Shown piece by piece: positions 7,712 to 26,842 of a stretch of 33,580 bases of DNA (the stretch's first letter is position 1; each line of letters starts with the position of its first letter). The position numbers and the translations under genes were made by a program. Source of the stretch: a virus; IMG/VR virus record IMGVR_UViG_3300027770_001992, positions 1 through 33,580 of that record. The stretch is one strand, 5' to 3'. The notes beneath the pieces were generated by a model. It was not told where the DNA came from. It made no database searches and worked only from the letters and a program-made list of their open reading frames with translations.

Positions 7712-9187
7712 ATGAATAATGGTTATATTCCTCAAAAGGACAGAAAGAAAATTATACTACTTTGCGATGACTTGAGAATGCATTCTGGTATTGCCACTAT
7801 GGCAAGAGAGTTTGTAACTGGACTTGCTGGCAAGTATAATTGGGTTCAAATCGCAGGTTCTGTTCAACATCCAGAAAAGGGAAAGATAATAAATTTGGAC
7901 GGTGCTGTAAATAACAGTGCTGGTATCAGCGATGCATATGTTCGTTTATATCCAGTTGATGGCTATGGCAATCCGGAAATTCTAAATGAAATCATCAAGC
8001 TTGAAAAGCCAGATGGATTGATGCATTTCACCGATCCTCGTTTTTGGGGTTGGTTATATCAAATGGAACGCGAACTTCGTCAAAAGATGCCAATTGGTTA
8101 TTATAGTATTTGGGATGATTTACCCTACCCAATGTATAACAGAGCATTCTATGAGTCTTGTGATTGGATTGGTTGCATCAGCAAACAGACAAAGAATATC
8201 GTAGAAGGTGTGTTGGGTTCTGTTCTCAATAAACCAACAACGGTATCTTATGTACCACATGGCATCAACACCAAGACATTTAGACCATTGACAAGTGAGT
8301 CTGAAGTAAAGGAACTTGTTGTATTAAAAAAGCAACTATTCAAAAAAGATTACAATTATGTTATTTTTTATAACAATCGCAATATTCGTCGTAAGCAAAC
8401 CAGCACAATCATGCTTGCTTATAGAAACTTCTGTGACAATCTAACCAAAGAAGAAGCAGCCAAATGTGTGTTGTTTATGCACACAACTCCATTGGAAGAA
8501 GCGGGCACAGATTTGATAGCATGTAAAACGGCGTTTTGTCCAGATTATGATGTGGTGTTTAGCACAGACAAAGTTATGCCAGAGCATATGAACCAGTATT
8601 ATAATATTGCTGATGTTACAATAAATCTTTCTGACAACGAGGGATTTGGTCTTGGAACGGCGGAAAGTATCGCCGCCGGTACACCAATACTCGTAACAGT
8701 AACCGGTGGTTTGCAAGATCAATGTGGATTTACGGATGAAAATGGTAATCCTGTAGAGTTTGATACAAACTGGGGAACCAATGCAGATGGTAGATACAAG
8801 AATCACGGTACTTGGGTTACACCAATATTTCCCGGTGCAAGAATGGTGCAGGGAAGTATTCCTACACCATATATTCTCGCAGATTATGCTCGTTGGGAAG
8901 ATGCTGCTGTAGCAATGATGCACTGGTATGAAGTTGGTCGCGACAATCGCAAAGATCGCGGACTAAAGGGACGTGAATGGCTCATGAGTTCAGAAGGATT
9001 GAGTTCCGAGAGAATGTGTGAGACTATGGCAGTTGGCATTGACAACATGTTATCAAATTGGAAGGGTAGAGAACGCTTCAACATTCATCGTCATGATGAA
9101 TATGTTGGACACAACATGCCAAACAAAAGTCTTGGATTCATTATTCCAAAGATTGACAGAGCAGAAGCAAAAAACAAATTCAACTAA
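7712..9187 (+). CDS. GT-B glycosyltransferase (GT4-like)
   Basis: A 491-residue GT-B-fold glycosyltransferase. The N-terminal domain begins with a KKIILLCDDLRMHSGIA strand-loop as in GT4 enzymes; a linker region carries YVPHGINTKTFRP, the usual GT4 hinge; the C-terminal domain has LSDNEGFGLGTAESIAAG, the E-x7-E donor-binding motif near residues 309-325, followed by a TGGLQDQ loop. Likely cytoplasmic, transferring an activated sugar; substrate unknown. It is the first gene of the island and longer than many GT4s owing to a ~60-residue C-terminal tail. Confidence 0.85.
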   Translation: MNNGYIPQKDRKKIILLCDDLRMHSGIATMAREFVTGLAGKYNWVQIAGSVQHPEKGKIINLDGAVNNSAGISDAYVRLYPVDGYGNPEILNEIIKLEKPDGLMHFTDPRFWGWLYQMERELRQKMPIGYYSIWDDLPYPMYNRAFYESCDWIGCISKQTKNIVEGVLGSVLNKPTTVSYVPHGINTKTFRPLTSESEVKELVVLKKQLFKKDYNYVIFYNNRNIRRKQTSTIMLAYRNFCDNLTKEEAAKCVLFMHTTPLEEAGTDLIACKTAFCPDYDVVFSTDKVMPEHMNQYYNIADVTINLSDNEGFGLGTAESIAAGTPILVTVTGGLQDQCGFTDENGNPVEFDTNWGTNADGRYKNHGTWVTPIFPGARMVQGSIPTPYILADYARWEDAAVAMMHWYEVGRDNRKDRGLKGREWLMSSEGLSSERMCETMAVGIDNMLSNWKGRERFNIHRHDEYVGHNMPNKSLGFIIPKIDRAEAKNKFN

Positions 9188-9387: not shown

Positions 9388-9410
9388 TAATAAAAATAAA
9401 AGTTATATAA

Positions 9411-10712
9411 ATGAGTAACGAAATAAAACCAGTTTGCGTAATACAAGGACCAATCGCATCTCGTTCCGGTTATGGTGATCATTGTTTTCAAATTGCCACT
9501 GCACTAATCAACAGTAACAAGTTTGATGTAAAGATCATTCCTATGCGATGGGGTGTATGTCCAAACACAATGCTTGATGATGAAAATGCTCCAATGGTGA
9601 AAGAAATCAAGAGCAGAATCATCAATCAACTATCAGCACAACCAGAGTTGTTTGTTCAAGTATCTATTCCCAATGAGTTCAAACCAATTGGCAAGTATAA
9701 TATCGGTGTAACTGCTGGTATTGAAAGCACGATTCCAAAGGCTGAATGGATGGAAGGAATGAATCGAATGAACCTTAATATTGTTCCATCCAACTTCGCC
9801 AAAGAAGGTTTTGTGAGTGCATCATACACAAAGAAACACGAAAATGGTGCAGAAGAAAAAATTGTGCTCAACAAGCCAATTGAAGTTGCATTTGAAGGTG
9901 TGGATGTGAATATCTACAAAAAGACAATCGAGTCTTCAAAAGAAATTGACACTGCAATTGATGCTATTACAGAAGATTTCTGTTATTTGTTTGTTGGACA
10001 TTGGCTACAAGGAGATTTGGGTGCGGATCGTAAAGACGTTGGAATGCTTATAAAAGTATTCAGTGAAGTATTCAAGAACAAGAAAAAGAAACCGGCGTTG
10101 ATTCTGAAAACCAGTGGTGCAACATTCAGCAAAATGGATAAAACTGATTTGTTAAAGAAAATCAATGAAATAAGAACTCCATTGAATGGAGACTTGCCAA
10201 ACATTTATCTTGTGCATGGTGAGTTGGAGCCAAAGGAATTGAATAGACTATACAACCATCCAAAAGTAAAAGCACATGTAAGTTTTACTCACGGCGAAGG
10301 ATTTGGTCGTCCATTGCTTGAAGCAACATTAAGCGGCAAGCCATTGCTTGCAAGTGGTTGGAGCGGTCATGTTGATTTCTTGCCAGCCGAACTTGCAAAC
10401 TTGTTGCCCGGTACATTGGTCAATATTCCACCAAGTGCATGCAACGACTGGCTAATCAAAGAAGCGCAATGGTTCAATGTAAACTACAGTGTTGCTGCTC
10501 AAAAGTTGGAAGATATTTTTGATAACTATATCAAGTATATTCCAAATGCAGAAAAACTGCGTCAACAAAACAGCGAAAAGTTTACACTTGAAGCAGGAAA
10601 TAAAGTTTTCATGGACATTTTGGACAAGAATTTGCCGACATTTGAAAAGAAAGTGGCAATCACTCTACCAAAGTTCAAGAAAATAACAGCACCAACACCA
10701 GTCACGGGATGA
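9411..10712 (+). CDS. GT-B glycosyltransferase (GT4-like)
   Basis: A 433-residue GT-B enzyme, paralogue-like to the gene at 7712. The N-terminus has GPIASRSGYGDHCFQIA, a Gly/Ser acceptor-domain loop as in GT4; the C-terminal donor site is HGEGFGRPLLEATLSGKP (E-x7-E, around 293-310) followed by SGWSGHVDFL. The substrate cannot be inferred. The gene ends in an ATGA overlap with the next gene (10709-10712), so translation is probably coupled. Confidence 0.85.
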   Translation: MSNEIKPVCVIQGPIASRSGYGDHCFQIATALINSNKFDVKIIPMRWGVCPNTMLDDENAPMVKEIKSRIINQLSAQPELFVQVSIPNEFKPIGKYNIGVTAGIESTIPKAEWMEGMNRMNLNIVPSNFAKEGFVSASYTKKHENGAEEKIVLNKPIEVAFEGVDVNIYKKTIESSKEIDTAIDAITEDFCYLFVGHWLQGDLGADRKDVGMLIKVFSEVFKNKKKKPALILKTSGATFSKMDKTDLLKKINEIRTPLNGDLPNIYLVHGELEPKELNRLYNHPKVKAHVSFTHGEGFGRPLLEATLSGKPLLASGWSGHVDFLPAELANLLPGTLVNIPPSACNDWLIKEAQWFNVNYSVAAQKLEDIFDNYIKYIPNAEKLRQQNSEKFTLEAGNKVFMDILDKNLPTFEKKVAITLPKFKKITAPTPVTG

Positions 10713-11389
10713 AAATAAGTTATTTAGTAACTTGCAAAAATGAGACACTTGAGCTTCTGCAACTGATTGAGAAGCTCAAGACTCATATAGACTTTGTTGC
10801 CCCAAACGATGAAGTCGTTGTATTGGACGATTTTTCGGATAATGAAGACACCAAGAAAATTCTTGCCAAAGCAAAAAGTTATGGGTTCACTGTTGTTCAA
10901 CATGCACTAAACAAAAATTTTGCTGAACATAAAAATTATGGCAGCAAGCGTTGTGTGGGCGACTTCGTGTGTCAAATCGACGCCGATGAATATTTGTTTC
11001 CAAATCTGTTGAATAATATGCACGAAATCATTGATTCAAATCCAACGGTTGAATTGTATAGAGTTCCAAGAGTCAATATTGTACGAGGTGCCACAGACAA
11101 TGATGCCAGAAACTGGGGATGGCATATATCAAAATTACCGGAGTTTGGTGACTTGCCTATTATAAATTGGAATTCAGGAGATTATCAATCTCGTATTTAT
11201 AAAAATAGTTTAAGAATACAATGGCACAAGCCATTGCACGAAACAATTACGGGAGCATCTATTGTGGCAGATCTTCCAAAAGAAATTGATTATGCTATTA
11301 TTCATTACAAGACGATTGATAGACAAAAAGCACAAAACGAGTTCTACAATAAGAACTGGTCAGTAAAAGCCAACATGGGACAAGGATGA
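10709..11389 (+). CDS. GT2-family glycosyltransferase
   Basis: A 226-residue GT-A-fold enzyme of the GT2 type. Seen: start MKISYLVTCKNE, the VVVLDDFSDNE nucleotide-binding strand (Asp40-Asp41), and the metal-binding DAD at 91-93 in QIDADEYLFP. The later HKPLHETI segment resembles the C-terminal part of WaaE/KdtX-like LPS glucosyltransferases. Short but complete. Overlaps both neighbours by four bases (ATGA). Confidence 0.85.
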   Translation: MKISYLVTCKNETLELLQLIEKLKTHIDFVAPNDEVVVLDDFSDNEDTKKILAKAKSYGFTVVQHALNKNFAEHKNYGSKRCVGDFVCQIDADEYLFPNLLNNMHEIIDSNPTVELYRVPRVNIVRGATDNDARNWGWHISKLPEFGDLPIINWNSGDYQSRIYKNSLRIQWHKPLHETITGASIVADLPKEIDYAIIHYKTIDRQKAQNEFYNKNWSVKANMGQG

Positions 11390-12189
11390 TAAGTTGTACA
11401 TTCAACGGTAGGTTGGGAAATCATCTGTTTCCAATAGCCACTGCACTATCTTTGGCAAAAAAATTAGAAGAAGATTGCGTTTTTCCCAATGACTCATATG
11501 CTGGTCATAGAGGCAATGTGAAAGTTGATTTGAGCATGTTCAAATACAACTTTAGTCGTGGTGTGGTCAAAGAAAATACGCAATATAATCATCACGTTGA
11601 TGATTATAAAGAAATACCATTGATCAAAAACACCACTATATCTGGATTCTACCAAGATTATAGATACTTTGATGATATAAGAGATGAACTGTTGAACAAG
11701 TATTTTGTTCCAGCCGACGAAATTTTGGAGAAAATATCCAAGATAGAAATCTCGCCAAATTCATTGGGTGTGTCTGTACGAAGAGGTGATTATCTTATGC
11801 TACAACACAATCATTGTGTGTTGAGTGACAGATACTATTCTGATGCCATAGATACATATTTCCAAGATGCAGATCAGTTGTTTGTGTTTTCTGACGACTT
11901 TACTTGGTGCAAACAAACATTCGGCGAAAGTGCCATATATGTGAATGATAGTATTGGTATGCAGTTGTTTCTTATGACCAAGATGAAGCATTTGATATTG
12001 TCCAACAGCACATTTGCTTGGTGGGGAGGTTATTTGAACAACAATAACGGAAATATCGTGATTCCCGATCCTTGGTATGGTCCGAATTATGATGAAAAGG
12101 GTACAGGATTGATATATCCAAGTTGGAAAATACTAAAGCATGAACGCAAAGTTTATCCTTTCCAAATGACAGAAAACATGTATAATTGA
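11386..12189 (+). CDS. GT11 alpha-1,2-fucosyltransferase-like
   Basis: A 267-residue GT11 enzyme, the alpha-1,2-fucosyltransferase family that takes GDP-fucose. All three family signatures are present: GRLGNHLFPIATAL at 8-21 (usually GRLGNQLFQ), the donor-phosphate motif SVRRGDY near residue 130 (usually H-x-RRGDY, so the first His is replaced), and LSNSTFAWWGGYL near 205-217. Length is typical (~270-300). No GDP-fucose synthesis genes are in the window, so the donor would come from the host or elsewhere in the genome. Fully overlapped by ATGA with the previous gene. Confidence 0.87.
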   Translation: MISCTFNGRLGNHLFPIATALSLAKKLEEDCVFPNDSYAGHRGNVKVDLSMFKYNFSRGVVKENTQYNHHVDDYKEIPLIKNTTISGFYQDYRYFDDIRDELLNKYFVPADEILEKISKIEISPNSLGVSVRRGDYLMLQHNHCVLSDRYYSDAIDTYFQDADQLFVFSDDFTWCKQTFGESAIYVNDSIGMQLFLMTKMKHLILSNSTFAWWGGYLNNNNGNIVIPDPWYGPNYDEKGTGLIYPSWKILKHERKVYPFQMTENMYN

Positions 12190-12193
12190 AGAT

Positions 12194-13099: not shown

Positions 13100-13881
13100 A
13101 TATAACAATTGTTGGTCATGGTCATTTGGCATATATCACGGCAGCGTGTATGGAGCAATTTCACAAAGTGAATGTTGATGAAACTGACATTGAGAAGCTG
13201 CAAGCGTCACAAATTGTTTGGATATGTTATGATACTCCGGTTGATGCTGATGGTAAACCAAGTTCTCAAGTTGTTGTTGACAGATTGAGAAACATATTGC
13301 CAAATGCCGGTGAAGGTACAATTGTACTAGTGTCATCTCAAATTCCAGTTGGCACATGTCGAGAACTTGTTTATGCATTTCCAAAGTTGATCATTGCTTG
13401 TTCTCCAGAAAATCTTCGTCGCGGCAAAGCAATCAATGACTTTATGAATCCAGATCGCATCATTGTTGGGTTGGATGGAAGTGCTTTAACTCAAGCAGAA
13501 GACAGAAAGAATTATGGACTGGCGACCATAGAAGATTTGTTTGCTCCATTGAACAAACCAGTTATTTTTGTTGGTTTGGAGTCAGCGGAAATGATCAAGC
13601 ACGCCATAAATTCTTTTTTGGCTTTGAGCATTGCTTTTATCAATGAAATTTCCGAGGTGTGTGACGCAACACACGCAGACAAAAGCGAAGTGTCAATGGG
13701 ACTAAAATCGGATAAACGAATTGGACCGTTGTCGTATCTAAAACCGGGCGGTCCATATACAAATGATACACTGGGCAGAGAAATTCATACATTAATTGAA
13801 CTTGACAAAAAATTTAATTTAGGATTAAATCTAATTCCATCAATCAAGAAATCCAACGATGAACATCGTAATAACTGGTAA
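13096..13881 (+). CDS. UDP-glucose/GDP-mannose dehydrogenase-like, Cys-less
   Basis: A 261-residue member of the nucleotide-sugar 6-dehydrogenase family (normally about 390-450 aa). Retained: a short Rossmann start (VGHGHLA), SSQIPVGT, SPENLRRGKAINDFMNPDR, and SAEMIKHAINSFLALSIAFINE, with the catalytic Lys and Asn. Changed: the normal GFGGSCFPKD loop reads GGPYTNDTLGRE, so the nucleophilic Cys appears to be Thr (about residue 225) and KD is RE. The C-terminal UDP-binding domain is missing. It may lack the full four-electron oxidation and act otherwise, or be non-catalytic. Overlaps both neighbours (4 and 23 bases). Confidence 0.75.
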   Translation: MNITIVGHGHLAYITAACMEQFHKVNVDETDIEKLQASQIVWICYDTPVDADGKPSSQVVVDRLRNILPNAGEGTIVLVSSQIPVGTCRELVYAFPKLIIACSPENLRRGKAINDFMNPDRIIVGLDGSALTQAEDRKNYGLATIEDLFAPLNKPVIFVGLESAEMIKHAINSFLALSIAFINEISEVCDATHADKSEVSMGLKSDKRIGPLSYLKPGGPYTNDTLGREIHTLIELDKKFNLGLNLIPSIKKSNDEHRNNW

Positions 13882-14602
13882 TAGTGCAGGTATTGGCAAG
13901 ATGTTGACAGACAGACTTGCGGGTAATGGACATGTTGTATATGGATTGTCTCGTTCTTCAGAATATAAATGTGATGTAACCAACTATGAACAAGTTGAAG
14001 ATTGGTCCAGATATTTTCTTGATGCTGATATAAACATAGATGCAGTTGTAACATGCGCGGGAACACAAGGTGAAGTTGGAAAAACATCCAAAACAGATGC
14101 AGCAGCTTGGGCAGAAACCATATCAGTGAATTTAAATGGAACATATAATGCAATTCGTGCATTTTATCCTACTATGGACAAAGCTCGCAGAGCAAAGATT
14201 GTATGTTTGGCTGGCGGAGGTTCTGCCAATGGTCGAGCATATTTCTCTGCTTATGCAGCAGCAAAGACGGCGGTGGTTCGTTTGGTTGAAAGCATATCAT
14301 TGGAAGAAAAAAACTTGGATATAAATGCGGTGGCACCCGGTGCAATAAAAACAAATATCATTGATGGAGCACTCAAAGCAGGACCAACCATAATTGGTGA
14401 AGATGAATACAACAAAGCACTGAAGCAATCTGCGCAAGGAGACGACCCATCTCGTATGCTCAATTTGATTGAATGGTTGCTGTCTGAAAAGAGTGATGGA
14501 ATATCTGGCAGATTTATCAGTGCTATATGGGACGATTGGGAAAAACTTGATAAAGCAACAATGCCTGACGAACTATATAAGCTAAGAAGGAATTTGATAT
14601 GA
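13859..14602 (+). CDS. short-chain dehydrogenase/reductase
   Basis: A 247-residue classical SDR. The cofactor motif TGNSAGIG is at 6-13, CAG at 66-68 (the NAG position), catalytic Ser about 122 and Y132-x3-K136. It oxidises or reduces a hydroxyl/keto group with NAD(P); as the island also encodes an E1-type 3-dehydrase, a sugar ketoreductase role is attractive but inferred. The ATG lies 23 bases inside the previous gene, and the last bases overlap the next start by ATGA. Other possible substrates (fatty acids, other ketones) cannot be excluded. Confidence 0.82.
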   Translation: MNIVITGNSAGIGKMLTDRLAGNGHVVYGLSRSSEYKCDVTNYEQVEDWSRYFLDADINIDAVVTCAGTQGEVGKTSKTDAAAWAETISVNLNGTYNAIRAFYPTMDKARRAKIVCLAGGGSANGRAYFSAYAAAKTAVVRLVESISLEEKNLDINAVAPGAIKTNIIDGALKAGPTIIGEDEYNKALKQSAQGDDPSRMLNLIEWLLSEKSDGISGRFISAIWDDWEKLDKATMPDELYKLRRNLI

Positions 14603-15540
14603 AAATTGGAATACATGTAGATCAATTGGATCATAGAGGTTGTGGCACTGTACCATATGACTATTCGTTGGCGTTACGTGACATTCTTGGTCATGAACCA
14701 TTCATTGTAAGTTCTAAAAAAAAGTCCACACATCCAATGAACAAGTTTGGTGAGTTTGGTTGTTTTTTGTACGAAGAAACATCTGAAATTCCATACATCA
14801 TAGACAAAGAAAAGATAGATTTGTTTTATATGATAAAATATGGCACAGATGATAAGTTGACACCAACAAATTGTAAAACCGGTATTCATTGTGTGTTTCA
14901 GATGCATGAACCGCATGGAGATGTATATGCTGGTGTGAGTGAATGGTTATCAAAATATTTCAAAAAGGAACTGTGGGTTCCTCATATCATAAATCTACCA
15001 AAAACAAATGAAACTCTACATGATGAGTTGGGTCTGCCTAAAAATGCGTTTGTGATCGGAAGATTGGGTGGTTATGAACAATTTGATGTACCAGATGCTC
15101 AAGCGGCTGTTATTGAAGCATTGAACAAGCGGTCAGACTTGTGGGCTATATTCTTGAACACAAAGCCGTTTACAGACCATCCTCGTACCAAGTTCATACC
15201 ATTTCAACCAGAATTGTCATATAAAAGCAAGTTTATCAACACCTGCGATGCTATGGTTCATGGTAGAAGTGATGGAGAAACATTTGGATTGGCAGTTGCT
15301 GAGTTTTCTTCATTCAACAAGCCTGTATTCACTTATGATGCACCATATTGGTGGTATATGCGAGCACACATTGATATGCTTGGCGACAAGGCTTTGAAAT
15401 ATAAAAATAAAGAAGAACTACTTTCGTATTTATTACAAATTGACAAACAGTATATCAATGATGTATACTGGGATTGTTATTCAATCAAATTCTCACCGCA
15501 GAATGTTATAAACAAATTCGAAGCGGTGTATATAAAATAA
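14599..15540 (+). CDS. GT-B glycosyltransferase-like protein
   Basis: A 313-residue protein resembling the GT4 type. The donor half has FVIGRLGGYEQFDV, then GRSDGETFGLAVAEFSSFNKP (E-x7-E, around 228-248), and a short N-terminal half, MKIGIHVDQLDHRGCGTVPYDY. Shorter than typical GT4 enzymes, so the acceptor domain is reduced. It has a real Shine-Dalgarno sequence (AAGGA, 14587-14591) despite the ATGA overlap. The following gene starts immediately at its stop codon. Confidence 0.75.
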   Translation: MKIGIHVDQLDHRGCGTVPYDYSLALRDILGHEPFIVSSKKKSTHPMNKFGEFGCFLYEETSEIPYIIDKEKIDLFYMIKYGTDDKLTPTNCKTGIHCVFQMHEPHGDVYAGVSEWLSKYFKKELWVPHIINLPKTNETLHDELGLPKNAFVIGRLGGYEQFDVPDAQAAVIEALNKRSDLWAIFLNTKPFTDHPRTKFIPFQPELSYKSKFINTCDAMVHGRSDGETFGLAVAEFSSFNKPVFTYDAPYWWYMRAHIDMLGDKALKYKNKEELLSYLLQIDKQYINDVYWDCYSIKFSPQNVINKFEAVYIK

Positions 15541-16359
15541 ATGCCAAATATAATAGAAGCAAAACATGGAAAATTCTTAGTGCTACCCAATGACGCATTG
15601 GGCAAAGCTTTGATTGAAAATCATGACTTTGAGCCTCACTTTTACAATATAGTAAAGAATGTGGTGAAAGACGGAGACACTTGTTTGGATTGTGGAGCTA
15701 ATCTTGGCTATCACACTGTAACATTGTCAAAGTTGGTTGGGCGTACTGGAAAAGTAATTTCGTTTGAGCCATTGAGAATAATTTATCAACAATTAAATGG
15801 TAATGTGTTTCTGAATGACTTGAGAAATGTATATTGCGTCAATGCTGCGATTGGCAATGAAAACAAGATGATTCAGATGGATTTTGTTGATGTGGATGCC
15901 ACACAAATAAACATTGGAGCAACAAAAGTTGGTGTTGGTGGCGACGTTGTTGAAATGATACGCATTGATGACATAATATCAAATGGAGTATCATTCATGA
16001 AAGTTGATGTACAAGGTTCCGAATTACTATTGTTGGCTGGTGCAGAAACTTTGATCAAGAATTCAAGACCAATAATGTTTGTTGAAGTTGAACACGAATG
16101 GCTAACATATTTCAACGAAAGCTCGGAAAGCTTGTTGAATAAACTGTTGTCACTGGATTATATATTGATAAGAATCAATACCGATTATCCGTGTGATCAT
16201 GTTGCCATACCAAGAGAAAAAAAGCATTTGATGGAAAGTATATTGAAAGATGTTGGACATCCAATTGATATCATAGATGGAAAATCTGTATCACTAAAGT
16301 TTGACAGAACCGGAAATCATTGGCATATTCTTTATGGAAGCTACACAGTAAATTACTAA
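15541..16359 (+). CDS. FkbM-family methyltransferase
   Basis: A 272-residue SAM-dependent methyltransferase of the FkbM family, which O-methylates sugars and polyketides. Motif I is LDCGANLGYHT (49-59), followed by GRTGKVISFEP (strand beta2 with acidic end), later FMKVDVQGSELLLLAGAE (the FkbM-typical KxDVEGxE block) and MFVEVEHEW. It starts directly after the previous stop with no intervening base. In this island it would cap or modify glycan hydroxyls. Confidence 0.85.
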   Translation: MPNIIEAKHGKFLVLPNDALGKALIENHDFEPHFYNIVKNVVKDGDTCLDCGANLGYHTVTLSKLVGRTGKVISFEPLRIIYQQLNGNVFLNDLRNVYCVNAAIGNENKMIQMDFVDVDATQINIGATKVGVGGDVVEMIRIDDIISNGVSFMKVDVQGSELLLLAGAETLIKNSRPIMFVEVEHEWLTYFNESSESLLNKLLSLDYILIRINTDYPCDHVAIPREKKHLMESILKDVGHPIDIIDGKSVSLKFDRTGNHWHILYGSYTVNY

Positions 16360-16360
16360 A

Positions 16361-17122
16361 ATGAAGAAAATAACCACAATCATAAACTACTGCACGAATG
16401 ACTATATCTTTCTAAAGCCATGTATTGATGCTGCATTGAAAGTATCGCACAAAGTCATTGTGCCATATTGCACTCATTTTCATGATGGAACCACGCAAAA
16501 TCGAGACTTGTTGAAACAATCTGCGGCAGAAAATCCAAGTGCCGAATTTGTTGAATTTGAGTATGATAAAACCCAATCTTCAAGATGGCACTGCAACGTT
16601 TCCAGAAAAATAGGAATTATGCTTGCACCCGACGACACAGATTATTTTATGTTTTTGGATACGGATGAAATCATTGTACCAAATGAATTCAATGCGTGGT
16701 GGACAGAACAGCGGAGCAAGTTGCTTGAAAGCTATAAATTATCCAATTATTTTTATTTCAGAGACTTCAAGTATCAAGGAAAAGAATGGCAAGACTCTAT
16801 TGCATTGGTAAAAAAGGGAGAATTCACTCAAGACCCATACATATTTCACAATGATGAGCGTTCTGGTGTATTTATTTACGTTCCACAGCATCTCAGAGCA
16901 AGAAACGTGGGATACAATGGTAAGCCGTTCATTCATCACTACTCGTGGGTTCGTTCCAAAGAAACGATGTTGAAGAAAGTTAGTTGCTGGAGTCACAATA
17001 AAGATCAAGATTGGGTTTCTCTCATAGAGAAAGAATTTTCTGCACCATTTCGAGGGATTGATATGGTATTTAACCAAGAATATATCACAGTAGAACCATA
17101 CTTAAACATCAAAATAGAATGA
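16361..17122 (+). CDS. GT2-like glycosyltransferase
   Basis: A 253-residue GT-A-type protein. Seen: KKITTIINYCTNDY (start strand), MFLDTDEIIVP (DTD, residues ~98-108), and a C-terminal IHHYSWVRSKETMLKKV segment; an aromatic His-rich region of this kind often follows the acceptor domain in such enzymes. Donor and acceptor unknown. It begins one base after the methyltransferase stop and ends in an ATGA overlap with 17119. Confidence 0.7.
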   Translation: MKKITTIINYCTNDYIFLKPCIDAALKVSHKVIVPYCTHFHDGTTQNRDLLKQSAAENPSAEFVEFEYDKTQSSRWHCNVSRKIGIMLAPDDTDYFMFLDTDEIIVPNEFNAWWTEQRSKLLESYKLSNYFYFRDFKYQGKEWQDSIALVKKGEFTQDPYIFHNDERSGVFIYVPQHLRARNVGYNGKPFIHHYSWVRSKETMLKKVSCWSHNKDQDWVSLIEKEFSAPFRGIDMVFNQEYITVEPYLNIKIE

Positions 17123-17844
17123 AGATAAATATTTTTGTTAGACACTGCAAGTTTTCGTCAAATTCGGCCAATAAACCAAGACCAGACTGGTTTACCCGCG
17201 AAGGTTGTTTTCACAATCTTATAAACACTCTTGATAAAAACTGTGAACTCACGGTTTCTTTTGATGGCCAAGTGAGTGGAAGCGGGCATTTTATAGAAAA
17301 TGAGATTTACAAAGGAAAATTCAATCTGTTTCAGAAAAAAGGAGGAAAAGATGCACATAGTTTTCTAAACATGATTGAGTATGTCAATAGTCTAAACATA
17401 CCAGACGATGAAGTTATATACTTCACCGAAGATGATTATCTGCATAATGTTGGTTGGGCAGAGTTGATGAGAGAAGCTTTTCATAACATCGACGCGGATT
17501 ATGTCACAATGTATGATCACAACGATAAATATTTTTATCCAATGTATCACGAACTGCTATCAAAGGTCGTATGTACCAAAAACATTCATTGGAAGACCAT
17601 ACCAAATACCACAAACACATATGCATGTCTTGCCAAGACGTTCAGACGCGATTATGCAACGCATGTAAAATATTGTGATTTGGACAGAGGACATTGCCGT
17701 GACTTTGACAAATTCGCTCAATTTGAACAAGAAGGAAAAACACTGATCAATCCAATACCGGGTTATTCCACTCACTGCGAGCCGCAATACATGTCTCCTG
17801 TAATAGATTGGGAGACTGTGTTCAACAAAACTTCAAAACTATGA
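17119..17844 (+). CDS. putative GT-A glycosyltransferase
   Basis: A 241-residue protein with a likely GT-A character: an N-terminal MKINIFVRHC strand, the acidic metal-type triad in YFTEDDYLHNVGW (about residues 101-113), and a His/Glu-rich C-terminus (STHCEPQYMSPVIDWE). I do not recognise the family. It lies between two GT-type genes and the E1-type dehydrase, overlapping each by ATGA, so a role in the same glycan is likely. Confidence 0.6.
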   Translation: MKINIFVRHCKFSSNSANKPRPDWFTREGCFHNLINTLDKNCELTVSFDGQVSGSGHFIENEIYKGKFNLFQKKGGKDAHSFLNMIEYVNSLNIPDDEVIYFTEDDYLHNVGWAELMREAFHNIDADYVTMYDHNDKYFYPMYHELLSKVVCTKNIHWKTIPNTTNTYACLAKTFRRDYATHVKYCDLDRGHCRDFDKFAQFEQEGKTLINPIPGYSTHCEPQYMSPVIDWETVFNKTSKL

Positions 17845-19154
17845 CCACCGACGATAGAAAAAACGAAATTGACAATTTTATAAAACAGATGACCGAGAAA
17901 TACGGCGTCTTGCCAAAGTTTGCACACAATATGGTGGCAAAAGACCCCAAGAGAGTGTATTATTCCGGTCCATACTTTGATGGTAGTGAAATATCGGCTG
18001 CGATTGAAACATTGCTGTTTGGCAAATGGTCTTCTTCCGGTGAAGTTTGTGCGAGATTTGAACGTGAATTTGGTAAGCACATCAACACTAAAAATTCATT
18101 CTTCTGTAACAGCGGTTCAAGTGCTAACCTGTTGCTCATTGCAGCCTGTAAGGAGTATTTCAAGTGGCAAGATGGAGATGAAGTGATTGTATCTGCGGTG
18201 GGATTTCCCACCACGGTTTCCGCATTGGTTCAGAATGGATTGGTTCCGGTATTTATTGATATAGAATGGGAAAGTCTCAATTTTGATTTATCCAAGATAA
18301 AAGAAAAGATCACCGGCAAAACAAAAGCCGTGTTTTTGAGTCCAGTGCTTGGAAATCCACCAGACATGGATGAAATGCTTCAGATCGTAAAGAATCATGA
18401 TATGAGATTGTTGCTCGACAACTGTGACTCACTTGGATCAAAATGGAGAGGAAAATTTCTGAACGAATACTCTATCGCATCCACCTGTTCTTTTTATCCC
18501 GCCCATGAAATCACCACACTGGAAGGTGGTATGGTGTCATCTGACATACAAGAAATCGTGGATTTGGCCAGAAGTTATGGCACATGGGGCAGAGATTGTT
18601 ATTGTGTTGGAGCAGCCAATCTATTGTGCAATGGAACGTGCAATAAACGATTTTCAAACTGGATTCCAGAGTTTCCCGACCTTATCATTGACCACAAATA
18701 TGTATTCAATCGTATTGGATACAATTTAAAACCATTGGATTTGCAAGGAGCAATTGGATTGGAGCAGTTAAAGAAATTAAACTTTATTTGCAACACCAGA
18801 AGTAAAAATCAAGCTGCTATTTCAACATTATTTTTTGAAAATGTGGATGGTGTAAAGTTTCCCAAAGTGTATGAACATTGTGAATGGGTTCCATTCGGCG
18901 TTCCTGTTATCTGCAAAGACAAGCCGCAAAAGCGTCGTTTGGTTGATTTCTTGGAAAAGAATGGAATACAAACACGAAACTATTTTGCTGGCAATCTACT
19001 CATGCATCGTGGATACAAACATTTGGGCAACTACTTGGATTATCCAGAGTCAAACAAAGTGTTGGACCTTGTGTTCTTTGTGGGATGTGCTCCAACAATC
19101 AGCAAAGAAAACCTTCAATATATTGAAGAGGTTCTAAAAACATGGGTAAATTAA
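17841..19154 (+). CDS. rfbH: E1/RfbH-type CDP-4-keto-6-deoxyglucose 3-dehydrase
   Basis: A 437-residue PLP-fold enzyme (DegT/DnrJ/EryC1/StrS superfamily) most like RfbH/AscC (E1), which uses PMP and a 2Fe-2S cluster to remove the 3-OH of CDP-4-keto-6-deoxyglucose on the way to 3,6-dideoxyhexoses. Seen: NSGSSANLL near 90-98; GFPTTVSALVQNGLVPVF; DNCDSLGS; SFYPAHEIT, where His222 takes the place of the usual Schiff-base Lys; and Cys195, 253, 255, 263, an exact C-X57-C-X1-C-X7-C as in E1. ATG 17841 overlaps the preceding stop; an upstream in-frame ATG at 17808 lies inside the previous gene. The E3 reductase and CDP-glucose genes are not seen. Confidence 0.87.
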   Translation: MTTDDRKNEIDNFIKQMTEKYGVLPKFAHNMVAKDPKRVYYSGPYFDGSEISAAIETLLFGKWSSSGEVCARFEREFGKHINTKNSFFCNSGSSANLLLIAACKEYFKWQDGDEVIVSAVGFPTTVSALVQNGLVPVFIDIEWESLNFDLSKIKEKITGKTKAVFLSPVLGNPPDMDEMLQIVKNHDMRLLLDNCDSLGSKWRGKFLNEYSIASTCSFYPAHEITTLEGGMVSSDIQEIVDLARSYGTWGRDCYCVGAANLLCNGTCNKRFSNWIPEFPDLIIDHKYVFNRIGYNLKPLDLQGAIGLEQLKKLNFICNTRSKNQAAISTLFFENVDGVKFPKVYEHCEWVPFGVPVICKDKPQKRRLVDFLEKNGIQTRNYFAGNLLMHRGYKHLGNYLDYPESNKVLDLVFFVGCAPTISKENLQYIEEVLKTWVN

Positions 19155-19972
19155 GCATATTTGGCGGAACTGGATTTGTGGGCAGTAACTTCGTGAAGTT
19201 GAATCCAGACAAATGTAATGTCATAGAACGAGAGAATAATGTTCCAGTTGATCATGATGTGTTGTATTTGATAAGTACAACTCACAACTATCATGTATTC
19301 AGTGATGTTCATCTTGATGTAAATACGAACCTAACAAAACTTCTGAATGTGTTGCCAAATACAAAAGGCACATTCAACTTTGTGAGTAGTTGGTTTTCTT
19401 ATGGTGATGGCTATGGTATAAACTCCACACCGGCCTTTGAACATTCCGATTGCCGACCCAAGGGATTTTATTCCATAACAAAAAAAGCCGCCGAAGATTT
19501 GATGGTGTCATATTGCAAAACATTCAATAAAGAATATCGCATACTACGTTTATGTAATGTTATTGGCGGCGATGTTGCTGCCGGTAAAAAGAAGAACGCA
19601 TTGGAGTTTTTGATTCATAAAATCATAAACAACGAACCGATTGATATATACAAAGGAGACAACTATAGAAACTTTATGCATGTTGAAGATGTGTGTGAAG
19701 CAATCAATCTGATCGCATCCAAGGGAAATATAAACGAAATTTACAACATTGGAACACAGAATAGCCACAAACTGATTGATGTTGTAAATCATGCAATGAA
19801 ACTAACAAAGTCCAAGAGCAAAATAAACTATGTGGATGTGCCAACCTTTCATAGCATTGTTCAAGCTCCCAATTTTTTCATGAACTGTCAAAAGCTGTAT
19901 GACTTGGGATTTCAACCAAAGTATGATGTATACAAGGCAGTTGAAATTATCGTAGCTAAGAACCTATTATAG
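19142..19972 (+). CDS. NAD-dependent epimerase/dehydratase
   Basis: A 276-residue extended SDR of the sugar-nucleotide type. GGTGFVGS at 8-15 binds NAD(P); VSSWFSYGDG around 81-90 holds the catalytic Ser; FYSITKKAAED gives Y110-x3-K114; RNFMHVEDVCEAI (about 180-192) is the usual sugar-binding signature. It likely reduces, epimerises or dehydrates an NDP-sugar, fitting the E1-type dehydrase just upstream (13-base overlap), where a 4-ketoreductase such as an abequose/paratose synthase would be expected. That assignment is inference. Last gene of the island. Confidence 0.85.
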   Translation: MGKLSIFGGTGFVGSNFVKLNPDKCNVIERENNVPVDHDVLYLISTTHNYHVFSDVHLDVNTNLTKLLNVLPNTKGTFNFVSSWFSYGDGYGINSTPAFEHSDCRPKGFYSITKKAAEDLMVSYCKTFNKEYRILRLCNVIGGDVAAGKKKNALEFLIHKIINNEPIDIYKGDNYRNFMHVEDVCEAINLIASKGNINEIYNIGTQNSHKLIDVVNHAMKLTKSKSKINYVDVPTFHSIVQAPNFFMNCQKLYDLGFQPKYDVYKAVEIIVAKNLL

Positions 19973-19973
19973 T

Positions 19974-20001
19974 TTGACTGTTTGGTAAAAATGTTCATAG
20001 T
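19974..20001 (+). promoter_or_regulatory. sigma70-like promoter for Pif1 helicase
   Basis: TTGACT at 19974-19979, 16-base spacer, CATAGT at 19996-20001; the ATG at 20014 lies 12 bases after it. The -10 is also the left arm of a hairpin with the start codon (19996-20016). Confidence 0.65.
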
Positions 20002-20016
20002 ATCTTTTATACTATG
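19996..20016 (+). promoter_or_regulatory. hairpin pairing -10 with start codon
   Basis: A perfect 8-bp inverted repeat (19996-20003 with 20009-20016) and a 5-base loop; the right arm ends in the ATG. RNA from the island reading through would hide the start codon, whereas RNA started at the local promoter (about 20008) lacks the left arm. See finding. Confidence 0.5.
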
Positions 20017-21366
20017 GCAAAAATAACCAACGCCCTGTTCACCAGTTTCAAAGAACTGAATGAGTATAAAAACTTGACGACTCTTCAAAAGAAGTTCTTC
20101 AAGGATTTTTTCTCTGGACGAAATATTTTCTTGACAGGACCAGCCGGAACGGGCAAGTCATATTGTGTAAATCTCTTATTCAAGTTCCTTGATTTGAATG
20201 GAATTTTTTATGCGAAGACTGCTACAACTGGCGTGGCTGCACTAAATATAGGTGGAGTAACTTTACATTCATGGTCTGGTATGGGATTGGCCGAAGAACA
20301 TGGTATGGAACTGCTTGATAAAGTGTCTGAAAATAACAAGGCAGTAAACCGCATCAAGCACAGCAAAGTGCTTATCATAGATGAAATATCAATGGCCAAG
20401 AGTGATTTGGTTGATAAACTGGACATTGTTTGTCAATATATTAGAAACAAAGACAAACCATTTGGTGGTATTCAAGTGGTGTTTGTTGGAGATTTCATGC
20501 AACTACCACCTGTGTTCAAGAATTTTGATGAAGAAAAGTTTGCATTTGATTCTCAAGCGTGGCGTGATGCTAAAGTAAAAACAATTCATTTGACTGAAAT
20601 TGTAAGACAGCATGATGAACCTCATTTTGCCAAGTTGCTCAATGAAATACGAATGGGTTGTGCCAAAGATTTTACATTGCTATTGGGTTGTTTGGATAGA
20701 AAGTTTCCAGATGATGGCATCAAGCCTGTCAAATTGTTTTGTAAAAATATTGATGTAAGCAAATATAACCACGACGAGTTGTATAAAATAAAAAATCAAA
20801 GTAAGTTTTATCATTCATCTGATTCGGGCGGTGATATGTGGCGTCAATTTTTTGATAAGAATTGTCCCGCTCCAACTACACTAGAATTGCGTAAAGGTGC
20901 TCAAGTTATTTTGCTGGTCAATTTGGATACAAAACTTGGATTGGTCAATGGCAGTGTTGGCACAGTGACCGAGGTACATGATACATATGTTGATGTAAAA
21001 TTTGCGTGCGGTGATCAAATTATTGAAACGTATAAATGGGAAATAAAGCAAAACGAGTATGATGCATTGACTGGCAACATGAAAAAGATTGTATTGGCTT
21101 CGCGTTCTCAATTTCCATTGAAACTTGCATGGGCAATCACAATTCACAAAAGCCAAGGTAGCACGCTTGATAGAGCAGAAATTGATATAAGTGAAGCATT
21201 TGCAGATGGACAAGTATATGTTGCATTGAGCAGAGTGCGTAATTTATCTTCACTTAGTATAAAGTCTTTTTCTCCACACAAAATCAAAACAAATAAAAAG
21301 TGTTTGGATTTTTATAACTCGCAAATTGATGAAAAAGAGATAGAGTTCTTTGTTGATGAGGATTGA
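20014..21366 (+). CDS. Pif1-like SF1B DNA helicase
   Basis: A 450-residue superfamily 1B, 5'-to-3' helicase of Pif1/Dda type. Seen: Walker A GPAGTGKS at 42-49; motif Ia AKTATTGVAALNIGG (67-81) and the Pif1-like LHSWSGMG; Walker B IIDEIS at 121-126; motif III VGDFMQLPP at 158-166; motif IV-like ELRKGAQVILLVN; motif V IHKSQGSTLDRAEID; motif VI VALSRVRN. It would remove proteins or structures ahead of phage replication forks. The motif Ia form is closer to Pif1 than to T4 Dda. Its own promoter and the start-codon hairpin separate it from the glycan island. Confidence 0.9.
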   Translation: MAKITNALFTSFKELNEYKNLTTLQKKFFKDFFSGRNIFLTGPAGTGKSYCVNLLFKFLDLNGIFYAKTATTGVAALNIGGVTLHSWSGMGLAEEHGMELLDKVSENNKAVNRIKHSKVLIIDEISMAKSDLVDKLDIVCQYIRNKDKPFGGIQVVFVGDFMQLPPVFKNFDEEKFAFDSQAWRDAKVKTIHLTEIVRQHDEPHFAKLLNEIRMGCAKDFTLLLGCLDRKFPDDGIKPVKLFCKNIDVSKYNHDELYKIKNQSKFYHSSDSGGDMWRQFFDKNCPAPTTLELRKGAQVILLVNLDTKLGLVNGSVGTVTEVHDTYVDVKFACGDQIIETYKWEIKQNEYDALTGNMKKIVLASRSQFPLKLAWAITIHKSQGSTLDRAEIDISEAFADGQVYVALSRVRNLSSLSIKSFSPHKIKTNKKCLDFYNSQIDEKEIEFFVDED

Positions 21367-21372
21367 TAAATT

Positions 21373-21807
21373 ATGACTACACAGAAAAAAGGTTGGTATT
21401 ATTATGTTATAACAGCTTTATGCTTTTTGCATATTGTACTGACTGCTACTGCCATCTGGGCACTGAAGCATCTGTGGGACAATGGGCAGTTGATGACTGA
21501 TTATGTTTCAACTTTAAAAGCGGTATTTACAATATGCGTACAATTTTGGTTTATCGGAGAGATGCTTTGGCATGATTCTGGATATACTATCATAACAACT
21601 ACGGAATATAAATTGTTCAAGTGTAAAGAAAGTGTCAAAGAAGAAGCATTTATGATGTTTGCTGATAGCACAGAAGAATTGGAGTATTTCTTTGAAGTTA
21701 CAGAACCAACCAAAAAGATTCATATTGAAGAAGCAGAAATGACTGGTAAAAGTATTCAAATGAAAGTATTCAACAGAGACAAAGAAGACGTGGAGGGCGA
21801 CAAATGA
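21373..21807 (+). CDS. two-span membrane protein
   Basis: A 144-residue protein with two hydrophobic helices (about residues 9-30 and 45-65; YVITALCFLHIVLTATAI and VFTICVQFWFIGEMLW), then an acidic soluble C-terminal domain of ~80 residues. No signal peptidase site and no known family. GAGGA at 21358-21362 is a usable Shine-Dalgarno sequence ten bases before the ATG. The stop overlaps the next gene by ATGA; as it precedes three GT2 genes, a membrane link to glycan transfer is possible but unsupported. Confidence 0.7.
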   Translation: MTTQKKGWYYYVITALCFLHIVLTATAIWALKHLWDNGQLMTDYVSTLKAVFTICVQFWFIGEMLWHDSGYTIITTTEYKLFKCKESVKEEAFMMFADSTEELEYFFEVTEPTKKIHIEEAEMTGKSIQMKVFNRDKEDVEGDK

Positions 21808-22598
21808 AAACCAAAACAGCGGCGTTTATATTAAATCACAATCTACCTGACTATACAGACATGTTGTATGAGTCGCTAAAGCCATATGAGCGAACTGACT
21901 ATGACTTGTTTGTTATAGACAATGCTTCATCAACTGAAGGAAAGAGCAAGCATACTTCATTTGAGTTGGAAGAGAATGTTTATTTCGGTGGTGGCTTAAA
22001 TGCTGCCATGCAATATACACTTGAAAACAAGCAGTATGATAGTATGATGTTCTTGAGCAATGATCTTACAATTCATCCATATAATTATATATCAACAATG
22101 CGAGAAGAAATGTTTGAGGATGTGTTTGATGATGTGCTTGCAGGAAAGTGGGTAAATAGAGAAATCAAATATGATATTGTATCTCCAACATTCTATAACA
22201 TAGAACCAAATCAACAATGTTTTTGGAAATGTATGCATAGTCGCAACTCTAAAGAAACAAGAAAAGTTGATTATGTTGATTTTCAATGTCCTTTGATTTC
22301 TCGTAGATTACTTGAAGAAGTAAAAGAGATTGATATAGATCTGAAGTATGGTTGGGGACCGGATTTTTACTTTGCTCTTATAGCAAAAAAACTGGGATAT
22401 AATCTTGGAGTAGTTGATAGATGCTGTATATTACATCACAACTCTCTAACTGTGAAACGAGGTGTAGCTGGTTTGGATATACCAACATATTGTAGATTGG
22501 CAGAAGAAGGTATGAAAAACTTCTTTATAAAGAAAAATTTGTGGACAGAATATATTGAACTACGAACCAAAACACAAACTTATGAATACAACAACTGA
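21804..22598 (+). CDS. GT2-family glycosyltransferase
   Basis: A 264-residue GT2 enzyme. Seen: start strand AAFILNHNLPDYTDML, LFVIDNASSTEG with Asp-Asn of the nucleotide site, YFGGGLNAAMQYTLEN (the GGG-x-N element common in rhamnosyltransferases), FLSNDLTIHP (metal motif S-N-D), then GWGPDFYFALIAKKLGY. This profile resembles WcaA/rhamnosyltransferase-type GT2. Donor unknown. First of three GT2 genes here, coupled by ATGA to the membrane protein. Confidence 0.85.
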   Translation: MKTKTAAFILNHNLPDYTDMLYESLKPYERTDYDLFVIDNASSTEGKSKHTSFELEENVYFGGGLNAAMQYTLENKQYDSMMFLSNDLTIHPYNYISTMREEMFEDVFDDVLAGKWVNREIKYDIVSPTFYNIEPNQQCFWKCMHSRNSKETRKVDYVDFQCPLISRRLLEEVKEIDIDLKYGWGPDFYFALIAKKLGYNLGVVDRCCILHHNSLTVKRGVAGLDIPTYCRLAEEGMKNFFIKKNLWTEYIELRTKTQTYEYNN

Positions 22599-22875
22599 AA
22601 CACAACTAGAGTTTGACTTTTTTGCACCAGCACAACTGACATTTGATTGGGCAAATAAAGATACTTATTTGACTACTACCTTTAAGCCAGATTTGACCAT
22701 GACTTTTTATGATGGTAAAAATGTGATTGGCAAGTTGGATTGGAATGATGGCACAATGAAGTTTAGCGGCAGTGTTGATGAAAGTGCTCAACTATTCGTT
22801 GATTGTATTATAAAAAAGCACACTCAAGGCACATTGTTTGACCAAAAGAAAAATAATACAGAGTGGAAATCATGA
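22582..22875 (+). CDS. hypothetical protein
   Basis: A 97-residue protein from the ATG at 22582, which lies 17 bases inside the preceding gene; an in-frame TTG at 22555 is less likely. It starts with Thr/Glu-rich TTTETQLEFDFF, has two beta-hairpin-like stretches (NKDTYLTTTFKPDLTMTFY and KNVIGKLDWNDGTMKF) and a helix ending in FDQKKNN. Not recognised. It ends in an ATGA overlap with the next GT2 gene. Confidence 0.65.
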   Translation: MNTTTETQLEFDFFAPAQLTFDWANKDTYLTTTFKPDLTMTFYDGKNVIGKLDWNDGTMKFSGSVDESAQLFVDCIIKKHTQGTLFDQKKNNTEWKS

Positions 22876-23786
22876 ATATGAACAATGCGTTATATACATG
22901 GGTCGTAAACACATATAAAAGTTTGTGTTATTTGCGGCTCGCGATTGAGTCTATTCGTGAAAATGCTTATTATAAAAATCAACCAATTCTTGTGTATTGT
23001 GAAAATGACACAGACACGCGAGATTGGTTAGCACAACAACCAGACATTGAATATATCTATGAAGAAAATGTTGTTCCTGTTGGTATTGGTGGTGGAGTAA
23101 ACAAAGCAATAGAGCGTGTAAAAACAGAATACTTTTCATTAGTACATAGTGATTTTTATATTAGCAGAAACTATGACAAGCCATTGTTTGATCTTGTATC
23201 TAGCACAGAAAAGCCATTAGTAGCAGGTGCGTGGCGGCTTGAACCAAACATATTCAACAATGTAGATAGAATAGGAACAGTGTTTGCTCCTGTAGAAAAT
23301 GGATTTGGTGTATATCATCACGACTTCTTGAAGAATGAGTTTTTAGATTGGGCAGATGAGTTTGTAAAAACATCAAATGCTCCCGACTTTAGAAAAGTAG
23401 AAGGCGTGTCGTATATGATGCGAACAAAGTATTTTTTAAATAACAGTCCAGTTTTCAATCCAACTTCATACGAAGATATGGACCAAAGTGTTAGAATGCA
23501 GTTAGAAGGATATAATTTTGTTGTAACTGGAAAAGCACTAACTTGGCACTTTGGAGCACGCAGTAGTCATTTTCTTGGACAGCACGACAAACTTACTGGC
23601 ACATCTGATAGACAAAAACAAGGTGAAGCTCGCAACTATCAAAAGTGGTTGAAAATATGGGGAGAGCCACCGTCGTATGACGAAGTAGGTTTTATCAAAG
23701 TATCCGACAATATGCGTGAAATATACAACAAAAATAGAGATAAATACTTGACAGGTGATTATAGCAGTGTCATAAAGGATGTATGA
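22872..23786 (+). CDS. GT2-family glycosyltransferase
   Basis: A 304-residue GT2-type protein. Start strand NALYTWVVNTYKSLCYLRLA, then QPILVYCENDTDTRDWL, the GIGGGVNKAIERVKTEYFSL element, and the metal-type VHSDFYIS (H-S-D) near 90-97; downstream SYEDMDQSVRMQLEGY and a WHFGARSSHFLG segment resemble the C-terminal half of GT2 rhamnosyltransferases. ATG 22872 overlaps the previous stop; an in-frame GTG at 22863 would add three residues. Confidence 0.82.
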   Translation: MNMNNALYTWVVNTYKSLCYLRLAIESIRENAYYKNQPILVYCENDTDTRDWLAQQPDIEYIYEENVVPVGIGGGVNKAIERVKTEYFSLVHSDFYISRNYDKPLFDLVSSTEKPLVAGAWRLEPNIFNNVDRIGTVFAPVENGFGVYHHDFLKNEFLDWADEFVKTSNAPDFRKVEGVSYMMRTKYFLNNSPVFNPTSYEDMDQSVRMQLEGYNFVVTGKALTWHFGARSSHFLGQHDKLTGTSDRQKQGEARNYQKWLKIWGEPPSYDEVGFIKVSDNMREIYNKNRDKYLTGDYSSVIKDV

Positions 23787-24286: not shown

Positions 24287-24288
24287 TT

Positions 24289-24471
24289 ATGACACCGACG
24301 GCACAAAAATATTTTGAGTTGTATTATAAACTACAACGCTGTATTGATGAAAATACTATACAAGAAAAATCCAACAAACTGCGGCAGGATATAATAGAGT
24401 ATTATAATAATATGACCGAAAAAGAAAAGCAGTTGATACACATTGTGGGAATAGAACACGACAAGATATGA
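24289..24471 (+). CDS. small hypothetical protein
   Basis: A 60-residue, helical, charged protein starting at ATG 24289, two bases after the preceding stop; an in-frame TTG at 24262 inside the preceding gene is a poor alternative. The segment KLQRCIDENTIQEKSNKLRQ has a coiled-coil pattern. Not recognised. Ends in an ATGA overlap with the next GT2 gene. Confidence 0.6.
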   Translation: MTPTAQKYFELYYKLQRCIDENTIQEKSNKLRQDIIEYYNNMTEKEKQLIHIVGIEHDKI

Positions 24472-25676
24472 AATACAAAACTAAAGATGTAACATTTGTA
24501 ATGCCGTCTTATAATACTCTAAATTATACCTTGATGGCATATAGAAGCCTTCGTGAATTTTATCCAAGTAATGAGATTATTATACTTGATGATGGTAGTA
24601 ATGACGGTACTGTTGATTATCTTGAATCACAAATCAAGTTGGATGACAACTTGCGTATTTGGATAAATACAACAGGGAATATTCTTGGGCATACTATTAC
24701 ATATGACATGGGTATAAAGATGGCAAACAATGCTCTTGTTAGTATCTTTCATAGTGACATGATTTGTGCCAAAAATTATCTTGAGAATATGCTCAAGCAC
24801 TATAAAGAAAAAACGGTGATATGTGCTACACGTATTGAACCAACTGGAATTTACCCAGAAGGTAAAGAAAAGATACTCAAACCATTTGGTATTGAGTTTC
24901 ATGAGTTTAAGAAAGAAGAGTTTACATCGTTTGTATATCAAGAGCAGATTGACAGCAAAGATAAAACGAGCAACGGTATATTCGCACCTTGGTTGGTAAG
25001 CAAAGAAGATTTCCTCACAATTGGTGGGCATGACGCAAAATCATATAGCCCTTTTCCCGAGGAAGATGCCGATTTATTTCTACGCTTTCATCTTGCTGGT
25101 TACAAACTGATACAGAGTAGAGATAGCATGTGCTGGCATTGGATAAGCCGTGGTCACAGAAGTTGGGCAAAGAATGGTGTGGGTAAGGATGATGATATGT
25201 TCAAGTTTTATCAAAATAGAGCACGCCGCAACTATCTTCGCAAATGGCATAAATGGATGATATTTGATAATAATCATCATCCAATAGCACATCCTGTATA
25301 CAACATCGGATTTGTTATCACCGATGTAACTAGTGAAGATTTTCTTCATTTTGTTGAGCCTTGGGCAACCAACATCTTTGTTGATAACATGATTTGTGCT
25401 GAAAGATACATAGCAAAAGAACAACCTACTACTAAGATTGATCTAACCACTCGCATATATAATCATGGCTATATTGAACAAATCAATAATGATATATTGT
25501 TGTATTTCAGTCAAAAGGACTTTATGATCAATGCTAATGAAAACTCAGCAATCATAACTAAACTTAGTGATATTATTTCAGAAGGTGTAGAAGACAATGC
25601 TGAAATGGAACTGGGTATATTCAAATTGAAAACAAAGATTGTAAAAGATATTAGCAAATCACTTATAAAAATATGA
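24468..25676 (+). CDS. GT2-family glycosyltransferase, C-terminal extension
   Basis: A 402-residue GT2 protein with a clear catalytic domain in the first ~270 residues: VTFVMPSYNTLNYTLMA, EIIILDDGSNDGTVDYL (DDGS nucleotide motif), SIFHSDMIC (H-S-D metal site), PFPEEDADLFLRFHLAGY (catalytic-base E/D region) and WHWISRGH. The ~130 C-terminal residues are an unassigned extension of Ile/Asp-rich strands and helices. Substrate unknown. Overlaps its neighbours by ATGA at both ends. Confidence 0.87.
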   Translation: MKYKTKDVTFVMPSYNTLNYTLMAYRSLREFYPSNEIIILDDGSNDGTVDYLESQIKLDDNLRIWINTTGNILGHTITYDMGIKMANNALVSIFHSDMICAKNYLENMLKHYKEKTVICATRIEPTGIYPEGKEKILKPFGIEFHEFKKEEFTSFVYQEQIDSKDKTSNGIFAPWLVSKEDFLTIGGHDAKSYSPFPEEDADLFLRFHLAGYKLIQSRDSMCWHWISRGHRSWAKNGVGKDDDMFKFYQNRARRNYLRKWHKWMIFDNNHHPIAHPVYNIGFVITDVTSEDFLHFVEPWATNIFVDNMICAERYIAKEQPTTKIDLTTRIYNHGYIEQINNDILLYFSQKDFMINANENSAIITKLSDIISEGVEDNAEMELGIFKLKTKIVKDISKSLIKI

Positions 25677-25981: not shown

Positions 25982-25984
25982 TAT

Positions 25985-26805: not shown

Positions 26806-26842
26806 TCATTTTCTTTTTTTTAACATATATTTATTATGTGAT

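Follow-up and report, generated by a model that had tools for sequence, protein, structure and literature searches.

A putative E1-type iron-sulphur sugar 3-dehydrase and its adjoining reductase in a probable T4-like phage fragment

The textbook pathway to 3,6-dideoxy sugars works on CDP-sugars and uses the reductase E3, and we know of no established dTDP linkage for the 3,6-dideoxyhexoses of surface glycans. The 3-deoxygenating enzymes closest to the protein described here are E1 (AscC/DdhC/RfbH; CDP-6-deoxy-L-threo-D-glycero-4-hexulose-3-dehydrase, structure 3bcx), SpnQ of the spinosyn pathway and ColD (GDP-4-keto-6-deoxymannose 3-dehydratase, 2gms). In all of them PMP binds the 4-keto sugar as a Schiff base, a His takes the proton and the 3-hydroxyl group is lost (PMC8987622). 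After this loss ColD proceeds by hydrolysis, whereas E1 and SpnQ carry out one-electron reductions through a 2Fe-2S cluster; the electrons reach E1 via E3, and SpnQ, which acts on a dTDP sugar, via ferredoxin or flavodoxin and their reductases (Fd/FdR, Fld/FldR) (PMC8987622).

The stretch of DNA analysed here (the window) is an entire IMG/VR record, 33,580 bases long, and probably represents only part of a larger genome. Its source was judged to be a T4-like phage because it encodes RNA ligase, clamp-loader, Dda-like helicase and dNMP-kinase homologues; megablast of positions 10000-26000 matched no near-identical known phage. The gene under study, which encodes the protein P0001 (Table 1), is an uninterrupted frame whose start overlaps the stop of the upstream gene as ATGA. 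Comparison with a 94% identical relative in contig L006 gave a dN of 0.042 and a dS of 0.45, and P0001 is therefore under purifying selection.

Table 1 Predicted features of the window; all lie on the plus strand.
Feature	Coordinates	Strand	Basis or remark
Glycosyltransferase, group 1	7712..9187	+	
Glycosyltransferase family 2	10709..11389	+	
Glycosyltransferase family 11 homologue	11386..12189	+	
UDP-sugar dehydrogenase homologue, 261 aa	13096..13881	+	same gene block; no C-terminal domain matched
Classical SDR, 247 aa	13859..14602	+	same gene block
Glycosyltransferase, weak group 1 match	14599..15540	+	below Pfam cut-off
FkbM-type methyltransferase	15541..16359	+	
E1-type 3-dehydrase homologue (P0001)	17841..19154	+	437 aa; NF011936, 3bcx matches
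Codon of Cys195, predicted 2Fe-2S ligand (E1 Cys193)	18423..18425	+	alignment, conservation
Codon of His222, Schiff-base Lys position (E1 His220)	18504..18506	+	alignment with 3bcx, 3bb8
Codons 253-255 (Cys-Tyr-Cys), two predicted 2Fe-2S ligands (E1 Cys251, Cys253)	18597..18605	+	alignment, conservation
Codon of Cys263, ligand in the sequence-only reading, unconserved	18627..18629	+	conservation
Codon of Cys267, predicted fourth 2Fe-2S ligand (E1 Cys261)	18639..18641	+	alignment, conservation, spacing
Extended SDR, 276 aa, probable 4-ketoreductase	19142..19972	+	motifs, alignment with RmlB, locus conservation
Glycosyltransferase family 2	22863..23786	+	
Glycosyltransferase family 2	24468..25676	+	

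Several other features of the window were recorded. The UDP-sugar dehydrogenase homologue matches the N-terminal and central domains only, and this short form is conserved, since several of the contigs L007-L015 carry relatives of about the same length. A promoter scan of positions 7400-26900 gave no excess over shuffled sequences. Further downstream, a long minus-strand gene amid plus-strand genes (27202-28233) encodes a dehydrogenase that appears GMP reductase/IMP dehydrogenase-like (phrog_9582) and is conserved in relatives, and the plus-strand gene at 29612-30535 encodes a 2H phosphoesterase-like protein that matches the anti-CBASS protein Acb1 (Pfam E 2.6e-9), a possible counter-defence gene.

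Active site and cysteine motif

P0001 belongs to the DegT/DnrJ/EryC1/StrS superfamily of Pfam and its top curated family is RfbH (NF011936, E 9e-103). Among solved structures phmmer places Yersinia E1 (3bcx, E 4e-69) and the H220K form of that enzyme (3bb8) closest, with ColD behind them, and homology with a Salmonella-type RfbH extends over the full length at 32% identity. An AlphaFold2 model built from 51 aligned relatives (pLDDT 89.6, pTM 0.89) again gave 3bcx and 3bb8 as the best Foldseek matches, with ColD among the top fold matches; the model is uninformative on cluster geometry, since pLDDT falls below 50 over most of the loop expected to carry the last ligand (residues 258-266 and 268-270). 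The best curated family and the closest solved structure, by sequence and by fold, speak for a plain RfbH/E1 orthologue, which would take host-made CDP-4-keto-6-deoxyglucose and electrons from a host E3 and yield a CDP-3,6-dideoxyhexose. Against such an orthologue, P0001 reaches only 344.3 bits with the curated RfbH model, for which the cut-off is 423.

A sequence-only reading of this DNA had proposed an E1-type dehydrase with His222 in place of the PLP-binding Lys, and its numbering of His222, Cys195, Cys253, Cys255, Cys263 and Cys267 is correct in P0001. phmmer pairs His222 with His220 of E1 and, in the H220K mutant, with the introduced Lys, so that the Schiff-base site carries His and not the catalytic Lys of a working aminotransferase. 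The His is conserved in all 164 sequences compared (90 phage and 74 cellular), a count that is partly selected because one of the scan patterns contained FYPAH. The scan patterns contained none of the cysteines: Cys195 is present in 90/90 phage and 74/74 cellular sequences, and Cys253, Cys255 and Cys267 are each present in 89/90 and 74/74, respectively.

The same reading had assigned the 2Fe-2S motif to Cys195, Cys253, Cys255 and Cys263, at a uniform offset of +2 from E1. The cluster ligands of Yersinia E1, which we take to be Cys193, Cys251, Cys253 and Cys261, agree with the phmmer alignment, and the first three assignments hold. The fourth does not, and the offset breaks at this last cysteine: the loop of P0001 has four extra residues, across which Cys263 falls on Cys257 of E1 and Cys267 on Cys261, and the counterpart of Cys261 is therefore Cys267. 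Conservation rules out Cys263 as a cluster ligand, as this position is Cys in only 14 of the 90 phage sequences and a gap in 69 of the 74 cellular ones, and its X7 spacing is a coincidence. The motif C-X57-C-X1-C-X11-C occurs in 75 of the 77 phage sequences matched by a spacing pattern and the other two have X56/X11, so that X11 precedes the fourth Cys in 77/77; among the pattern-matched cellular sequences the commonest last spacing is X7, which is also that of E1. Sequence, tree and fold together support an E1-type dehydrase that has His at the Lys position and a complete four-Cys motif, and P0001 is very probably an E1-type iron-sulphur 3-dehydrase.

The same data bear on a cluster-free enzyme of the ColD kind, in which glutamate would regenerate PMP and the cysteines would be structural. 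ColD likewise carries His at the Lys position and ranks with the best fold matches, and ColD-type homologues occur in phages (S-CAM7 and the uncultured phage L002). Yet the four ligand cysteines, for which a ColD mechanism has no need, are conserved across the 90 phage and 74 cellular sequences, and in a tree of 158 sequences the ColD-like rows stand on long branches outside the E1 group; we regard this alternative as highly improbable.

Spread and phage clade

The sequence-only reading had called radical 3-deoxygenation in a phage remarkable, which overstates the case. A profile scan of IMG/VR confirmed at least 561 stretches encoding relatives of P0001, and rfbH is listed as a viral auxiliary gene in virome surveys (PMC10653327, PMC11295528). 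Of the deposited phages, relatives at 52-53% identity are found in the Synechococcus phages S-H68, S-B05, RB11-B and S-B43 and in a 642 kb uncultured phage, and the records of S-H68 and S-CAM7 already carry 3-dehydrase annotations. The 642 kb record (LR756502, L002) encodes both a ColD-like (7464-8633) and an E1-type 3-dehydrase (15022-16323), about 6.4 kb apart. A short record of 2,570 bases labelled as a Salmonella phage (OR851175, L173) holds an apparent RfbG fragment and RfbH, and looks like host rather than phage DNA.

In the tree of 158 sequences the sampled phage rows form one clade apart from cellular RfbH (SH-aLRT 100, branch 0.59), and Salmonella-type RfbH falls among the cellular rows outside it. 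The tree was built by a quick method from the best-scoring matches only, so phage E1 genes outside the clade may exist. Two bacterial rows, from a Nitrosomonadaceae MAG and a Prochlorococcus single cell, are nested inside the phage clade. In both, the phage-type E1 and reductase (SDR) form a pair (L020:9180-11323 and L022:3635-5751, respectively) amid bacterial-looking genes. The idea that these nested rows are phage contigs is unsupported: the neighbours in L020 read from sequence as SecD/SecF, Tgt and QueA types, which makes a bacterial location of L020 likelier. The presence of the phage-type reductase in both nested rows, together with otherwise chromosomal-looking neighbours, suggests exchange of the E1-reductase pair with bacteria.

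Reductase partner, sugar nucleotide and electron supply

The gene of the extended SDR overlaps the end of the E1 gene by 13 bases. Alignment with RmlB shows that the protein keeps GxxGxxG and YxxxK and is without the Asp-Glu pair of 4,6-dehydratases, which rules out a 4,6-dehydratase. At a threshold of 60 bits a relative of this SDR is present in 65/90 phage E1 loci, and in 56 of these no more than 100 nt separate it from E1; just two cellular loci have one, those of the two rows nested in the phage clade. From its motifs and this constancy, the SDR is likely to act as the 4-ketoreductase for the E1 product.

Gene context points away from the CDP pathway (RfbF, RfbG and E3) that the sequence-only reading had implied, and towards dTDP-sugars. 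Neither RfbF (glucose-1-phosphate cytidylyltransferase) nor RfbG (CDP-glucose 4,6-dehydratase) was found over cut-off in any of 50 whole E1-carrying phage records, and a search of the window and its relatives for the CDP pathway returned nothing over cut-off. RfbF lies near E1 in 41/75 cellular loci as against 0/90 phage loci. RmlB (dTDP-glucose 4,6-dehydratase) is instead over cut-off in 11 of the 50 phage records and near cut-off in 4 more, and RmlB-like genes at 150 bits or above accompany E1 in 24 phage loci as against 3 cellular ones. In L103 the genes run RmlA-E1-reductase-RmlB, and in L159 RmlB-RmlA-E1-reductase; RmlA is over cut-off in L103 and L104, and the supported clade that contains P0001 also includes L102-L104. 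The window itself, a probable fragment, encodes neither RmlA nor RmlB, and the evidence on the substrate comes from relatives; in the searched contigs of its closest relatives no RmlB was found, and supply by host RmlA/RmlB must therefore be assumed. On this context the substrate of P0001 is probably a dTDP- rather than a CDP-sugar.

That the window lacks the upstream pathway genes, so that the host must supply them, also suits the plain RfbH/E1 orthologue, and RmlB and RmlC near E1 could serve a rhamnose-type pathway while E1 draws on a host CDP-sugar. The contrast between cellular and phage loci in RfbF, the empty searches for RfbF and RfbG and the presence of RmlA and RmlB in phage operons in their place make a CDP-dependent orthologue unlikely, although it stands well ahead of a cluster-free enzyme. 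Some relatives have a further order: in L168 (5720-9783) and L155 (5731-11296) a small gene resembling a cytidylyltransferase-like family of L001 and L003 comes first, then RmlB, RmlC, the reductase and E1, and in L001 and L003 the cytidylyltransferase-like gene, RmlB, RmlC and the reductase are present with E1 further downstream. In these phages a 5-epimerised (L-) 3,6-dideoxy sugar is possible.

The absence of E3 from the window, which had also been pointed out from the sequence, is borne out: the window holds no Fer2 domain, and neither a reductase with the E3-type NAD-binding domain (PF00175) nor a ferredoxin reductase was found in the 50 whole E1-carrying phage records, which include records of 642, 297 and 210 kb, while the controls were positive. 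An FNR-like reductase family lies near E1 in 17/75 cellular and 0/90 phage loci, and a ferredoxin is encoded in 6/50 of the phage records. Certain phages could carry E3 beyond their sequenced part, though 0/50 records had one. Since P0001 has what the cluster route needs and the phages are without E3, SpnQ-style electron supply is the natural reading, and there is good reason to expect that the phage E1 works without a dedicated E3.

The lack of a linked E3-type reductase gene in these 50 records would also suit a sugar aminotransferase that, like SpnQ without its reductase, converts the 4-keto sugar into a 4-amino sugar; in vitro, SpnQ deprived of a reductase does act as a transaminase (PMC8987622). 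However, the His at the Schiff-base Lys position and the conserved cluster motif would then be idle, transamination by the H220K mutant of E1 is only non-catalytic (PMC8987622), and the SDR found regularly beside E1 is short and lacks the dehydratase residues, the kind of partner that a 4-keto product would call for. Such an aminotransferase is, in our judgement, very improbable.

Proposed pathway and comparison with known systems

We favour, with moderate confidence, a PMP/2Fe-2S 3-dehydrase of the E1/SpnQ type in a mostly phage clade, acting on a dTDP substrate and followed by SDR ketoreduction and glycosyltransfer. In this pathway dTDP-4-keto-6-deoxyglucose would be made by host RmlA/RmlB in the present case, and by phage RmlA/RmlB in relatives. 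PMP on P0001 would form a Schiff base with the 4-keto sugar, His222 would abstract the C4' proton and the 3-hydroxyl group would leave, after which the cluster would pass two single electrons to reduce the glucoseen intermediate. These electrons would come from host ferredoxin or flavodoxin, or in some cyanophages possibly from the phage's own. The adjoining SDR would then yield a dTDP-3,6-dideoxyhexose, which one of the phage glycosyltransferases would add either to the virion or to a glycan on the host surface.

The E1-carrying phages are thus likely to produce an uncommon dideoxy sugar destined for a surface. The broader proposition, that phages evolved their own clade of iron-sulphur radical 3-dehydrases for dTDP-3,6-dideoxyhexoses, with electrons taken from ferredoxin or flavodoxin of the host, and that the pair of enzyme and reductase has been exchanged between phages and some bacteria, is advanced tentatively. 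If true, a widespread phage group uses iron-sulphur radical chemistry, without E3, to build a 3,6-dideoxy sugar on dTDP rather than CDP, and a step that depends on host electrons is tied to phage glycan decoration, be it receptor change, superinfection exclusion or virion coating. The genes RmlA-E1-reductase-RmlB would offer a compact operon for in vitro work.

The viral rfbH of the virome surveys shares the gene name, and in their accessible portions it is listed without analysis of motif, partner or substrate (PMC10653327, PMC11295528). A literature search for K12452 in viral context and for phage 3-dehydrases returned nothing. To our knowledge, the following had not been described before: a phage clade marked by X11 in the motif, a reductase that regularly accompanies E1, the dTDP operons, and the lack of E3 and of CDP-pathway genes. 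Among the described enzymes, ColD shares with P0001 the fold and the His-for-Lys change, but it has no cluster and regenerates PMP with glutamate, whereas P0001 keeps the four ligand cysteines. SpnQ, judged from its description, would resemble the phage enzyme in its dTDP substrate, its 2Fe-2S cluster and its use of general ferredoxin or flavodoxin instead of E3 (PMC8987622), and differs in that its substrate is a 2,6-dideoxy sugar. E1 shares with P0001 the His at the Lys position, the fold and four cysteines in the same order (X57, X1); the phage protein differs from it in having X11 rather than X7 before the fourth Cys, in its separate clade and in belonging to phages whose searched E1-carrying records hold no RfbF, RfbG or E3 over cut-off.
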